From assembly GCA_018268255.1 (NCBI GenBank), contig JAFDWX010000003.1, positions 124,001-188,000 on the forward strand: a stretch of DNA of 64,000 nucleotides, written 5' to 3'. Positions 54,547-60,667 of this stretch are shown here, piece by piece. Within the stretch, counting starts at the first letter, position 1. Each line of letters starts with the position of its first letter. This DNA is from Armatimonadota bacterium. GTDB lineage: Bacteria > Armatimonadota > Fimbriimonadia > Fimbriimonadales > Fimbriimonadaceae. The notes below the pieces were generated by a model that did not search any database, was not told the origin of the DNA, and was given only the letters and a program-made list of their open reading frames with translations. The position numbers were made by a program, and so were the translations under genes.

Positions 54547-55152
54547 TTAAATTGACTTGAAGTTCTCCAGTCGAATCCGAGCCGACTGGAGGCTGACGTC
54601 TGCCGCCGCCGAGAGCGTCCTGGAAGCCTCTTCGATCGACGCCCAGCCTCCAGCAAAGAGTTGGGATACAAATGCGGTCGGCATCAAGATATGGCTCGCG
54701 AACATGTTCGCTTGCGACTCCAGTTTGTTGCGGGTGCCGCCCTCGCCCCGGTGCAACTGAACGACTGCCTTTGACGACTCTGTGTAGAAGTCGAAGACTC
54801 CCTGCAAAAAATGGGGCTTGTGGAGAATGTAGTGGCCGTATTCATGGGCCCACGTAAACCTACGTCGACCCTCGTGCGGGATGGATTCGCGAACAAACAT
54901 CTTGTCCCGTGAGAAGTCGTACGCGCCAAGGAAATCGGGTTCGAACTCAGGATGATCGTCATCGAAGTATTCGACCTCGATCTTCTCCATGATTTCGACC
55001 AGGGATTCGATATCGATAGGAAGAGCGGGCCGGGTTCCGGTTTCGCGCTCGAAGCGCACCAGCTTGTCCCGGACGATGCGCTCTAGTCGGGCAACTGGTA
55101 GAAACTGCACTCCGCAGAAGCATGCCGGTACAGGATCAAACTCCGTCGCCAT
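54547..55152 (-). CDS. ImmA/IrrE-family metallopeptidase
   Basis: Zinc protease that typically cleaves a partner XRE repressor in mobile elements, or acts as a toxin or DdrO-type regulator. The HEYGH motif lies in FTWAHEYGHYILHK, with the third ligand in ESQANMFASHILMP. The start is ATG 55152 (201 aa); it overlaps the XRE gene by 17 bp, a coupled pair. The frame runs earlier to 55296, but only inside the XRE gene. Confidence 0.86.
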   Translation of the reverse strand: MATEFDPVPACFCGVQFLPVARLERIVRDKLVRFERETGTRPALPIDIESLVEIMEKIEVEYFDDDHPEFEPDFLGAYDFSRDKMFVRESIPHEGRRRFTWAHEYGHYILHKPHFLQGVFDFYTESSKAVVQLHRGEGGTRNKLESQANMFASHILMPTAFVSQLFAGGWASIEEASRTLSAAADVSLQSARIRLENFKSI

Positions 55153-55507
55153 CCTCAGAAAGCTCCTCAGCTTGTTTAGAAAGCTGTTCGACCTGTTCAC
55201 GGGAGAGGTCCTTTGCCGCTCGGAACAACCTGACGAACTCGGGTCGATCCTCCACGGCTTGCTTGGCAACGTCATCCCATCGACCGGCGAGTCCAATTAG
55301 ATCATCAAGCGAAGTTTCGAGCAGTTCCGCGATTTTGGTGAGTCGATCGGGCGTTGGTGGCGGCAAGGTCCCGTTCTCAACCCCGCTCACATAGGTTGGA
55401 CTGACGCCCAGGGCTTCTGCGAACTTCCGGAGCGTCAGGCCCTTCGCAACCCGGAGATCCCGCTGCTTGGCTCCGTAGCGATTGGATGGACCCACTTCTT
55501 CCGTCAT
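55136..55507 (-). CDS. XRE-family transcriptional regulator
   Basis: Helix-turn-helix repressor of 123 aa. The HTH (LRVAKGLTLRKFAEALGVSP, TYVSGVENG) covers about residues 15-65, and the C-terminal 45 residues are acidic and helical. ATG 55507 is 12 bp inside an earlier GTG. It would be cleaved or counteracted by the ImmA protein encoded next. The promoter at 55520-55548 carries two TTGACA copies, one at -35 and one at the start codon, suggesting autoregulation. Confidence 0.85.
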   Translation of the reverse strand: MTEEVGPSNRYGAKQRDLRVAKGLTLRKFAEALGVSPTYVSGVENGTLPPPTPDRLTKIAELLETSLDDLIGLAGRWDDVAKQAVEDRPEFVRLFRAAKDLSREQVEQLSKQAEELSEDGDGV

Positions 55508-55519
55508 TGTCAACTGCAC

Positions 55520-55552: not shown

Positions 55553-56881
55553 TTGGAGCCTGTGCGCAACGAAAACGACACTTGCCGAGAACTCGTCGAA
55601 CCAAAACTTCGGGAGTCGGGCTGGGAGTCGAGTCCTCACTCGATGACCGAGCAATACAGGATCACGAAAGGACGAATCGTGGTCGCGGGCCAGGTTGCGC
55701 GACGCAGGGAGGCGCTGAAGGCCGACTACCTGCTGAAATACACGGGTGATTTCAACATCGCGGTTGTCGAGGCTAAGGCTGAGTCGGAGCTTGCAGCGAA
55801 TGGGGTCCAACAAGCCACCCGGTATGGTGCAAAGCTGCGCCGAAAGGTTCGTGGGGCGGAGATCGCGTCCGAGAGCCGTTACCTTGCGCGAGCGGGCCAT
55901 CTAATCCTTTCCCGCATCGACGCGCGACACGGCGCAGTAGCCCTCCTGCCGGACTCCTTGGATGGAGCGGTTGTCACCAACGACTTTCCTCTCTTTGACT
56001 TCAACATTGCGCGGGTCATCCCAGAGTATTTGTCGCTCGTCATAAAGGCCGTGGAGTTCGTGGAGCTTTGCAAACGCGCGAGCAAGGGTTCCACAAATCG
56101 AGTTCGGATTAAGGAGGACCTGTTCCTTGCCCTCACCATCCCCCTCCCCTCGCTCGATGAGCAGAGGCGCATAGTAGCCAAGGTTCACGAGGCGATGGGG
56201 GCGCTGGATCGCGCGGCCACATTCCACGCCCAAACTGTCGCCGACTTCGACCGACTCCTCATCGCCCTCGCCCACCGCGATGATCTGACTGACGACCAAA
56301 AGCGCGAACGCGGCTGGCGCAAACTCCGCCTCGGCGATGTCATGCATCTTGACCTCCATCCCGTCAAAGTCGACCCCAGCCAGGACTATCCGAACGCGGG
56401 ATGTTTCAGCTTTGCCCGCGGCCTTTTCCTCAAGCCGCCGATCGTAGGCATGGAGTGGCAAAGCGATACGCTGTTCAAGCTTCGAGCGGGCCAGTTCACG
56501 TATCTGAAACTGAAAGCCTTTGAAGGGGCTTTTGCTTTCGTTAGTGAGGAGTTCGAGGGCCGGTACGTCTCCAATGAATACCCAACCTACTCACCAATCG
56601 CCGGTGAGTGCCGAGGCGAGTGGGTCTTTGCCCATTTCAAGCACGAGCGAGTCTGGGCGACCCTCGCATCAGGAAGCAAGGGCATCGGTGCTCGACGTGA
56701 GCGTGTCAACCCAGCGAGGCTGCTCGCCCACGAAGCCTGGGTTCCACCCATTCCCGAGCACGATCGCATCGCCGAAGTGCTCGCCGCCCAGCGACGTTTC
56801 GTGGCGAGCGACACCTTCCAAAAGGACTCGGAGTCGCTCAAACGCGCTATTCTGTCAATGGCGTTTCGGGGAGTGCTATGA
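55553..56881 (+). CDS. Chimeric ORF: HsdR nuclease core fused to N-terminally truncated HsdS
   Basis: A single 442-aa frame combines two type I restriction-modification proteins. Residues 1 to about 93 match the HsdR N-terminus: RELVEPKLRESGWE, ADYLLKY with the catalytic Asp, VVEAKAE (E-X-K) and QQATRYGAKL (QxxxY), a complete nuclease motif set. From about residue 96 it becomes HsdS: RRKVRGAEIASESRYL and SRIDARHGAV of TRD1, PLPSLDEQRRIVAKV of the central conserved region, the second target-recognition domain and a complete C-terminus. About 45 residues are missing from the HsdS start, and the rest of hsdR and all hsdM are absent. The start is TTG with no ribosome binding site. It may be a deletion relic, or a working fusion. 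Confidence 0.72.
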   Translation: MEPVRNENDTCRELVEPKLRESGWESSPHSMTEQYRITKGRIVVAGQVARRREALKADYLLKYTGDFNIAVVEAKAESELAANGVQQATRYGAKLRRKVRGAEIASESRYLARAGHLILSRIDARHGAVALLPDSLDGAVVTNDFPLFDFNIARVIPEYLSLVIKAVEFVELCKRASKGSTNRVRIKEDLFLALTIPLPSLDEQRRIVAKVHEAMGALDRAATFHAQTVADFDRLLIALAHRDDLTDDQKRERGWRKLRLGDVMHLDLHPVKVDPSQDYPNAGCFSFARGLFLKPPIVGMEWQSDTLFKLRAGQFTYLKLKAFEGAFAFVSEEFEGRYVSNEYPTYSPIAGECRGEWVFAHFKHERVWATLASGSKGIGARRERVNPARLLAHEAWVPPIPEHDRIAEVLAAQRRFVASDTFQKDSESLKRAILSMAFRGVL

Positions 56882-57330
56882 AGATAAACTGGAAAAGCCA
56901 CCACATCCTCTTGCTGGGCTCCATAGTGTTCGCCGCGATTATGGTGGTTCAATCGACCCAGCGCACGTTGACGGCAACGGAAGGCGCGCTTTTCCAAATC
57001 GTCAGCCTTGCGCTAGGGATTCTCTGGTCCTACGAACAGGCGAATCGCAAGGATCAGCCCCATGCTAAGTCTGCCTTTAGGCGAATAGTTGCCCTGTACA
57101 AGAGCCTGGCTAGGGTGAGGACTCATATACAGAACGCTCCCAGTCACTACCAGCTTGACGAAGAAGGAAAGCAAGCGCTCCACTTTCTCGATAGCATTGT
57201 CGTTGAACAACTTTCGACAGCCGAAGATTCGATAGAAGATTGGAAAGAGCTACTGAGTGAATCAGAGATCAAAGCAATCGTTGCGAATTCAGCCGCGTCC
57301 CCAAATGGAAAAGAAAATGGAAAGGATTAG
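56878..57330 (+). CDS. Two-helix membrane protein of unknown function
   Basis: A 150-aa protein with two transmembrane helices near the N-terminus (ILLLGSIVFAAIMVV and GALFQIVSLALGILWSY) and a helical cytoplasmic domain of about 100 residues. Its ATG overlaps the stop of the chimeric HsdR-HsdS ORF by ATGA, and the next gene overlaps it by 26 bp. It belongs to no family I recognise. The coupling suggests it is translated with the chimera, as accessory genes of restriction systems are. Confidence 0.6.
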   Translation: MKINWKSHHILLLGSIVFAAIMVVQSTQRTLTATEGALFQIVSLALGILWSYEQANRKDQPHAKSAFRRIVALYKSLARVRTHIQNAPSHYQLDEEGKQALHFLDSIVVEQLSTAEDSIEDWKELLSESEIKAIVANSAASPNGKENGKD

Positions 57331-57754
57331 AGGAAAAGTCGCCAAGGTTCTCAACTCTCGGGAAGTAGTCCTCAATGTAGGCGCAGATCATGGTGTGACT
57401 CTGAGCATGCTCTTTGACATCCTCCAGCCCGGTGGGGAGGACATCAAGGATCCGGACACCGGTGAAGTTCTCGGGTCGCTGGAAAGGTCCAAAGTGAGGG
57501 TCAAGGTTGTTGACGTCCAATCGAAACTGTCCGTCGCGTCAACTTATAAGACATACGAAATCAATATTGGAGGGTTGGGAGGCTTCGGCACAGGCGAACT
57601 GTCAAAGATGCTAACTCCCCCGAAGTTCGTTAGAAAGGTTCAGACGCTTAAATCCGATGAGTTGACCCCTGAGACAATCAAGGAGAACGAGAGTTTCGTG
57701 AAGACAGGTGATCCTGTGGTCCAAGTTATTGAAGTTGAACTGCAGGAAGGCTGA
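57305..57754 (+). CDS. OB-like small protein of unknown function
   Basis: A 149-aa protein with GKVAKVLNSREVVLNVGADHGVT, the beta-barrel pattern of FlgT-C-like modules, and acidic, charged surroundings. Two ATG codons (57305 and 57317) are possible; the second has GGAA upstream. It overlaps the membrane-protein gene by 26 bp in another frame. It has no signal peptide. The function is unknown. Confidence 0.55.
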   Translation: MEKKMERIRGKVAKVLNSREVVLNVGADHGVTLSMLFDILQPGGEDIKDPDTGEVLGSLERSKVRVKVVDVQSKLSVASTYKTYEINIGGLGGFGTGELSKMLTPPKFVRKVQTLKSDELTPETIKENESFVKTGDPVVQVIEVELQEG

Positions 57755-57793
57755 TCCCAAGGAAGCCAGTTTTGGAAGCTGTTACTACGAACC

Positions 57794-58810
57794 ATGAACC
57801 TAAAATCGCTCTTTTTGAACGGTCGCACAGCTAGCGAAGCCAGCGCCGATGCAACACTCTCACCGGCCGAGTTGTTCCTTCTGTCGTTGTTCTTGAAGCC
57901 TCGGCTCCGGCAGACCATCACAGGGCCAGGATGGAACGACGTCTGGCGAGCCTCATTGGGTAAGGAGCCCGCGCGAGTTCTCGACGGCTTCCTGACAGAA
58001 GGTCTCTTGCGCACCTGCGACAGTGCGGAGAAGCTTGAAGTCAAGTTTCGCGTCCCGGAGCTTGTCGAAATCTGCAAACGTCACGGCCTCGCTCACAGGG
58101 GCAAGAAATCGGAACTGATTGCTACGCTGGTTGAAGGAGTCAGTTCGACCGAGATCGCTTCGATGACATCAGACGTGCATCCCCTGCGATGCACAGAGGT
58201 CGGGGCTACCTTGGCTGACGCTTACAAGCAGAAGGCGGACGCGGCTCGGCAAGAAGCTGAGACTTCATGCTTGGATGCCCTTCGTCAAGGTGAACTGGCG
58301 CAGGCGTGCCAGATCGTGCGGCGGTTCGAAGCGCGTCAACCTATTCCGAGAGGCATGGGCGTTGACTGGTCCAATCCCGACACTTCGCACGAGCTTGGAC
58401 TGCTGGTGGCGCTCTTCCAGGATAAACCACCTTCGACAGCACCGCCGACCACGATCGCCGCAGCGATGGGATTGCTCTGGGGTATGGGACCGGAGAAGTG
58501 GCTCCCCAAGGAGCCGTCCGATTCCAGCAAACGCCGACGCCGCACACCGGAAGAGAAGGCAGCGGAGGTGGCCGCACGAATGGAGGCATTCCGAGCAAAC
58601 CATGAGAGGACACTTGAAGGCTATCGGGCGAACAGGGACGTGATCATCGCTGTGGAGATCCTGGCCGCCCAATCTTCATGCGACTTCTGCAAGAGCAGAG
58701 TCGGCCGCTATCCGCTCGATTCCGTGCCTCCATTGCCTCACTCAGAGTGCACTCACGACATGGGATGCCGGTGTGTATACGTCCCAGTGACAAGACTGTG
58801 CGACCTTTAA
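57794..58810 (+). CDS. SAP-domain protein with C-terminal cysteine/histidine motif
   Basis: A 338-aa protein, possibly DNA-binding. A SAP motif (PELVEICKRHGLAHRGKKSE, about residues 92-122) binds DNA in many proteins. The C-terminus has CDFCKSRVGRYPLD and PPLPHSECTHDMGCRC, a cluster like the terminal zinc-type motif of phage head-morphogenesis (Mu F-like) proteins. The N-terminal 80 residues have FLKPRLRQTITGPGWNDVW. It follows the small gene by about 40 bp. A phage origin is plausible but the central part is not recognisable. Confidence 0.55.
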   Translation: MNLKSLFLNGRTASEASADATLSPAELFLLSLFLKPRLRQTITGPGWNDVWRASLGKEPARVLDGFLTEGLLRTCDSAEKLEVKFRVPELVEICKRHGLAHRGKKSELIATLVEGVSSTEIASMTSDVHPLRCTEVGATLADAYKQKADAARQEAETSCLDALRQGELAQACQIVRRFEARQPIPRGMGVDWSNPDTSHELGLLVALFQDKPPSTAPPTTIAAAMGLLWGMGPEKWLPKEPSDSSKRRRRTPEEKAAEVAARMEAFRANHERTLEGYRANRDVIIAVEILAAQSSCDFCKSRVGRYPLDSVPPLPHSECTHDMGCRCVYVPVTRLCDL

Positions 58811-58843: not shown

Positions 58844-60667
58844 TTAGTCGTTGTGCTCGATTTGATCCTTACTCGCCCGCTCGACTCCATGAAGCAGCAG
58901 CCAAAGGGTCAGCGGGACTAGGATGATGTTGCTCGGGCTGTAGAAACTTCCCGCAGAGACAAGTCCATGCGAGACGTTGTTCCGAAGGTTCGCCCCGGCA
59001 CGCTCGGCCAGCAAGCCTCTCAACTCAAAGGCGAGGTCTTGTCCGAAGATCTGGCTGAATGCCTCGGTCTCTACGATCTTATTGATCGGGAATTCGTCCT
59101 GCGTCCCGTTTTGGCTTAGGAAGGTGGTGAGAACGCCGTGTTGGTTCAGCACGTGCCGGAATGAGTTCTCTAACTGCGGTATGAGCAGGTGCGTCGCAAC
59201 GATGTAATCGCCTTCTATTCCAGCCTGGAGACCCCGCGCGAAGATAGGCTCACGTCCCTTTGGAACGAACAGATTGTCGTTCAGGAGCCAATCGAGGCAG
59301 CCATCTTGCCACGGGTGCTCGCCAGCAATCATGTGTCGGATCTGCTCGGCCATCCACGCGGTCACCGGTCTGGTCATCTCCGCCATCCGCCACATGTGTA
59401 GTTGGAGCAACTCGTCGCTTGGCTCCTCATTCAGCGGCATTGCGGGGATCACGAAGTCGACCTTGCCGTCTTCGCGCAAGATGGAGTTCGAGAAGATGCT
59501 CGAAAGAGGACTCTGGGTGACGTGCTCTCGGACCATTTCACGTAGGCGTTCCTTGCCGATTGGTCGGACCTGAATTGCCCAGAATGCCAGGGCCTCTCGA
59601 AGGCTCATACCCTTGACCTTCTCGATGTGCTCGATCATCTTTGGGTCCATCGGGACGCTCGTTTCGATCTTTCCAAGGTGCTCCAATCTGTCCTTCTGAA
59701 GCGCATGAAGGCGCTTCATGAGTTCTTCTTGCCGTTCCTTGGGAGCACCTGCCTGCCTCAGCGTGAGCAAACCCTGTTCAAACCAATGCTCCGCAGCGAG
59801 TCCTGGCTTCCCAGCCATCGCCTCTCCGACTGAAATTTGAGCTTCTCCCTGACGAAGCGAAGCCTCGGTAGCGCCCGCTTCGTTCCCCGCCTTCCTTCGA
59901 CACGTTGCGACGAGGGCCCAATAGTCGGCAGCGGTTATCCAGTCTTGGCGACCTTCAGCGCCCTCTGCGGACTTTTCCGCGTAACTCGCGAGCACGGCAG
60001 GATCGCCAATCTTGTATGCAAGAGCGAGGTCGATGATTGATCTGGTCAAGTAGAGAGGATCGCTCCCGTTCAACTTGGCGAGGAGTTCGAGTGCGTAGTT
60101 GGCGACGGCGGCGCGTTCGGCGCTCTGCTTACCCAGCGCCCCGGCGATCTGCATGGCTCGCTGCAATCGCTGAAATCCGTGCACCCACTCAGCGGGGTCC
60201 ATCAACGCCTTGGCACCCTCGAGGTATGCGGCCGCCGCGACCCGCGCTGCTTGGTGATCCTTTCGCCGAATCCAAAGGATGTCTGCCAACCGTGCTTTCA
60301 TTTCTCGGTCGGCGATTTCGGCGTACACGGCAGCGATTGGGTCAAGGTGTTGATCCTCGAAATCACTCAGCGCGGCAGATCGCGAGTTCGCCATGACAAA
60401 CATGGGCTTCAGCGGCTCGGCTGCGTCGTTTGAGTCATATAACATCGACGACGCCGATCCAAGCAGCACGTAGACTTGCTCTGCGCGTCTGTCTCCAGCT
60501 TCAGCGGCGACTCTGGCGGCGGCGAAGAGCGGGGTTGAATAGTTGTCAATCTCGTCTCGCTTGTCTTGCTCGATCGTGTCAAGCCACGGGACTACGCGCA
60601 AGTCGTCTGCAGTGACGTGCAGGTCCGTGAACATCAGCTTCGGTGCTTCTGGGGTGTGTTCTTCCAA
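58844..60667 (-). CDS. DUF4209-like protein with C-terminal HEPN-type motif
   Basis: A 607-aa cytoplasmic protein. The N-terminal two thirds are TPR-like, all-helical and Ala-rich. The C-terminus (FELRGLLAERAGANLRNNVSHGL) matches the DUF4209 pattern and has R-x4-H (RNNVSH), the signature of HEPN ribonuclease-like domains found in toxins and defence proteins. The start is TTG 60667, with GGAG 9 bp upstream. It is divergent from the three unknown genes and shares their double-palindrome promoter region. Whether it cleaves RNA is unproven. Confidence 0.62.
   Translation of the reverse strand: MEEHTPEAPKLMFTDLHVTADDLRVVPWLDTIEQDKRDEIDNYSTPLFAAARVAAEAGDRRAEQVYVLLGSASSMLYDSNDAAEPLKPMFVMANSRSAALSDFEDQHLDPIAAVYAEIADREMKARLADILWIRRKDHQAARVAAAAYLEGAKALMDPAEWVHGFQRLQRAMQIAGALGKQSAERAAVANYALELLAKLNGSDPLYLTRSIIDLALAYKIGDPAVLASYAEKSAEGAEGRQDWITAADYWALVATCRRKAGNEAGATEASLRQGEAQISVGEAMAGKPGLAAEHWFEQGLLTLRQAGAPKERQEELMKRLHALQKDRLEHLGKIETSVPMDPKMIEHIEKVKGMSLREALAFWAIQVRPIGKERLREMVREHVTQSPLSSIFSNSILREDGKVDFVIPAMPLNEEPSDELLQLHMWRMAEMTRPVTAWMAEQIRHMIAGEHPWQDGCLDWLLNDNLFVPKGREPIFARGLQAGIEGDYIVATHLLIPQLENSFRHVLNQHGVLTTFLSQNGTQDEFPINKIVETEAFSQIFGQDLAFELRGLLAERAGANLRNNVSHGLVSAGSFYSPSNIILVPLTLWLLLHGVERASKDQIEHND

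Follow-up and report, generated by a model that had tools for sequence, protein, structure and literature searches.

An open HsdR-HsdS frame in an Armatimonadota genome: probable outcome of a deletion in a type IB restriction-modification operon

The chimeric frame and its neighbours

The window, a stretch of 64,000 nucleotides from the genome of an Armatimonadota bacterium, carries at 55553-56881 on the forward strand a frame of 442 codons in which the start of one type I restriction-modification (RM) gene runs into the greater part of another. The frame is open throughout, without stop or frameshift, as the initial annotation had stated. Residues 1-91 are the beginning of a type IB HsdR of the EcoAI/FtnUII family, and residues 92-442 are an HsdS minus its first 43 residues or so. 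In the relative G012, one of three genomes of the same family that we used for comparison (G012, G016 and G033), the corresponding HsdR is 96% identical in amino acids to residues 1-95 and the HsdS 79% identical to residues 92-442, which confirms the annotated in-frame joining of an HsdR start to HsdS. The likelier start of the chimera is GTG 55562, giving a protein of 439 aa, because the homology to HsdR of G016 and G033 begins there; the three closest relatives begin it at VRNENDTCRELVEPKL. The features of the locus are collected in Table 1.

Table 1. Features at and around the chimeric frame, with positions in the window
Feature	Position	Strand	Evidence or remark
M78/IrrE-like peptidase (CapP-like)	54547..55152	-	PF06114 6.8e-13; capP 2.1e-22
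HTH_3 (CapH-like) regulator, divergent	55136..55519	-	PF01381 2.7e-16; capH 2.5e-12
hsdR 5' remnant, start to Y91	55562..55826	+	G012 HsdR, PDB 3H1T, NCBIfam NF046051
Deletion joint, ATG common to hsdR and hsdS	55824..55826	.	blastn piece ends and base-by-base comparison
hsdS remnant, with TRD1 truncated and TRD2 complete; conserved central helix and C-terminal region	55829..56881	+	G012 HsdS, PADLOC
Small membrane-like ORF	56878..57330	+	ATG overlaps chimera stop

The match to known proteins is far above chance. Residues 5-97 match residues 24-116 of the crystallised HsdR PDB 3H1T (E 5e-24), and the chimera covers positions 2-91 of 768 in the EcoAI/FtnUII HsdR model of NCBIfam. The frame had been described as keeping all nuclease motifs; D58, E73-A-K75 and Q87-xxx-Y91 are indeed present, but the nuclease domain is not whole, since the HsdR sequence breaks off directly after the tyrosine. 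The strand that follows the QxxxY helix and the remaining nuclease domain are missing, whereas in EcoR124I, with QxxxY at 179-183, the endonuclease domain extends beyond that motif, at least as far as Lys220 (PMC4454674). Only residues 1-91 of 769 are kept, and the frame thus falls short of an HsdR that has both a nuclease and an SF2 motor domain.

The second part matches the PADLOC Specificity_I model (2.2e-47). The claim that it holds two recognition regions stands for TRD2, which is complete, but not for TRD1, as residues 1-43 of the G012 HsdS, strands of TRD1 included, have no counterpart in the chimera. In the AlphaFold model of the intact G012 protein, strands 10-13, 18-20 and 32-38 lie within the lost residues and the edge of strand 45-52 also falls at the truncation, so that three TRD1 strands and a portion of another are predicted to be absent from the chimera. 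In the AlphaFold model of the chimera itself what remains of TRD1 is less confident than in the intact HsdS, and TRD2 and the long central and C-terminal helices are whole. The HsdS is also a mosaic: TRD1 is close to that of G012 and TRD2 (56330-56881) to that of G033, with the switch near residue 268. This is ordinary shuffling or exchange of TRDs.

Upstream of the frame, a divergent pair of HTH and M78 (CapH/CapP-like) genes at 54547-55519 adjoins the type I operon in the window as it does in G012, G016 and G033. The HTH_3 regulator is 98% identical in amino acids to that of G012 and is kept as in the intact relatives. The presence of the pair suggests stress-controlled expression of the type I RM system. 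Downstream, the stop of the chimera overlaps the start of the next gene in the tetranucleotide ATGA (56878-56881); two relatives have other genes downstream of hsdS, with the same overlap of 4 nt. From this arrangement, translational coupling of the chimera to the downstream gene is probable. In the window two small ORFs occupy this cassette position (56878-57794), and one of them matches FlgT_C weakly; the relatives have an HNH gene (G012) or a 336-aa gene (G033) there. Farther on, a DUF7380/DUF4209 protein (58844-60667) matches the candidate phage-defence family PDC-S39 (3e-143), and this gene is kept beside the same operon in G012 and G016.

Intact operons in relatives and the deletion joint

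Full-length hsdR, hsdM and hsdS are found in this order in G012, G016 and G033. At the same place in G012, between flanking genes that share 94-95% DNA identity with those of the window, lies the intact operon hsdR-HEPN-hsdM-hsdS, and measured against it most of HsdR together with hsdM is gone from the locus, in agreement with the initial annotation. The additional gene between hsdR and hsdM of G012 is a RiboL-PSP-HEPN gene (L034:5251-5925); G033 has in its place a 227-aa gene with no Pfam match.

In blastn comparison the window is collinear with G012 up to position 55826 and again from 55824. It lacks exactly 4,368 bp (3 x 1,456) relative to G012, and the joint carries a microhomology of 3 bp, the triplet ATG; a search for repeats able to drive the deletion found none beyond it. 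A single joint and a collinear intact operon in relatives are what a deletion remnant leaves. Because 4,368 is divisible by three, the frame continues across the joint. The share of such joins that stay in frame is about 0.33-0.41, the upper figure coming from a count of every 3-bp match of hsdR with hsdS in G012. In-frame joins being this common (41%), one deletion explains the chimera, and no selection is needed to build it.

The same observations bear on the possibility that the joint is an assembly error and that the real genome contains an intact operon. With 9 contigs and a completeness of 98.5%, the assembly leaves some room for such an error; however, the two sides share 3 bp only, there is no long repeat that could have misled the assembly, the contig that contains the joint is 423 kb long and extends to both sides of it, and a search of the contigs for a stray copy of the absent 4.4 kb found none. 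We therefore consider an artefact very unlikely.

Of the 291 phylum genomes searched, this one alone has the fused arrangement, the other 290 being without it. The junction is absent from the plasmids and phages searched, and an exact junction search of viral contigs gave no match. The parts themselves are not rare: 24 of 151 relatives and 23 of the 291 phylum genomes have matches. In all other matching genomes the two parts lie in separate frames, and a conserved HsdR-HsdS fusion family was rejected. A plasmid match in Rhodococcus (H7) that covers 87% of the query is an ordinary hsdS between hsdM and hsdR and not a fusion. A search of other genomes for the same junction had been proposed along with the annotation, which had listed its absence among the outcomes that would count against its reading, and the junction was found nowhere else. 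This lack of conservation is likewise what a deletion remnant would show.

We are confident that the chimera is a recent deletion remnant, most likely non-working, of a type IB RM operon in a mobile defence island. Its ancestor would have been an intact, G012-like arrangement, with the HTH and M78 genes diverging from an hsdR-HEPN-hsdM-hsdS operon, which would have been gained horizontally within the defence island. A single deletion between ATG triplets of hsdR and hsdS would then have taken HsdR residues 92-769, the HEPN gene, hsdM and HsdS residues 1-43, and with a chance of roughly one in three the join would have come out in frame. The promoter region and the start are intact, so the 439-aa protein is probably made; it most likely neither cuts nor methylates DNA.

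Age of the remnant and the open frame

Compared with G012, the window shows 13 differences over 262 codons, 10 of them synonymous. Most of the 13 are not polarisable, and TRD1 is without a close outgroup. The 87 codons of the HsdR part contribute two synonymous and one nonsynonymous difference, and the following 175 HsdS codons contribute eight and two. Under neutrality 10 synonymous differences out of 13 have a probability of about 2.5e-4, a point against the remnant reading. The excess mostly reflects selection that acted earlier, in both lineages, while the genes were intact; part of it may come from selection after the deletion, which is inseparable from the earlier selection. The hslU gene of the host has only 69-75% nucleotide identity to that of its relatives (about 70-75% for G012), and in two congeners the downstream part of the island has no match. 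The few differences from G012 in the operon, set against this, indicate that the island arrived recently and that the deletion came later still.

The initial annotation took the undamaged frame as a sign of function, on the grounds that a relic usually carries frame damage. This argument does not hold here, as the divergence from the intact G012 genes is too small for damage to be expected. After 7-10 random or neutral substitutions the probability of no stop is 0.72-0.79; with indels added, the probability of neither stop nor frameshift is 0.10-0.39 at rates that were assumed, not measured (one frameshifting indel per 5-10 substitutions). The absence of frame damage is thus no evidence of function, and chance and youth explain the open frame. 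The mildest reason why the frame might nevertheless be kept is the coupling to the downstream gene, and to preserve it, with ribosomes running on into that gene, is probably the most that the in-frame join does.

Possible activity and known systems

A functional type I RM system includes HsdM, and searches of the host assembly with PF02384 and with the G012 HsdM found no hsdM, a contig edge leaving a small gap. Nor was a second EcoAI-type or G012-like HsdR found in the host genome. A second hsdS lies near the start of contig C6 (L038:1767-3038), beside RhuM and AbiJ-like genes, and its hsdM may lie in the assembly gap.

According to one proposal in the initial annotation, the chimera is an active sequence-targeted nuclease, in which the recognition domains of HsdS bring the HsdR nuclease core to DNA with neither ATP nor methylation. 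The catalytic D, ExK and QxxxY residues are in keeping with this, and PMC6158711 proposes a fusion of a nuclease with half an HsdS as an intermediate in the evolution of type IIP enzymes. However, such a tethered nuclease is unlikely because the nuclease core, cut at Y91, and TRD1 are both truncated. HsdS alone does not bind DNA, and neither does HsdM alone (PMC3874165), so the missing hsdM also speaks against the proposal. When longer nuclease pieces of HsdR were fused to HsdM in the laboratory, the products showed no restriction activity (PMC6158711); the unmethylated host genome would be attacked; and the junction is not conserved. Taken together, we regard an active nuclease as exceedingly improbable.

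The annotation also proposed a decoy for another type I system. On this reading, extended to an alternative S subunit, TRD2 and the helices would bind the HsdM of such a system, changing or blocking its activity. In its favour, TRD2 and both the central and the C-terminal helices are whole, half-S proteins can function with HsdM (PMC6158711), and the hsdS at the edge of contig C6 leaves room for a partner in the gap. Yet the decoy has no demonstrated target, because HsdM was not found in the genome. The HsdS on C6 is only about 21% identical to part of the chimera, which would make its HsdM a poor partner, and here too the fusion is unconserved. We consider this role very improbable. It is extremely unlikely that the chimera, if expressed, folds well enough to function as a nuclease-S protein or to bind HsdM, which would make it a naturally occurring snapshot of the nuclease-HsdS fusion through which some type II enzymes are proposed to have arisen. 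Were its product active after all, it would provide a natural example of the nuclease-HsdS fusion in the models of type II enzyme evolution (PMC6158711). Read as a deletion remnant, the chimera illustrates that a single in-frame deletion can yield a protein that in all likelihood is inactive although it has all the expected motifs, and that an open frame says little about function where an intact copy differs by only a few percent.

The HsdR start and most of the HsdS derive from a type IB RM system of the EcoAI/FtnUII family; unlike such a system, the chimera is without motor domain and hsdM, and its nuclease domain and TRD1 are truncated. It resembles the single-chain fusions of nuclease, methylase and TRDs in the type IIB/IIG and type ISP enzymes in having nuclease sequence and TRDs in one polypeptide. 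These enzymes, however, keep a complete nuclease and methyltransferase; the chimera has neither, and Pfam and NCBIfam searches found no methyltransferase domain in it. The engineered nuclease-HsdM and M-half-S fusions of SauSTORF499P CC398-1 also place an HsdR nuclease part on another subunit, but the HsdR pieces joined to HsdM there were longer (at least some of them 171 aa and more), and the nuclease-HsdM fusions were still not restriction-active (PMC6158711). The chimera also resembles deletion remnants and pseudogenes of RM operons, with which it shares the loss of most of the operon, the occurrence in a single genome and the lack of conservation, and from which it differs in that its frame happens to stay open. 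The chimera is a real but ordinary feature.
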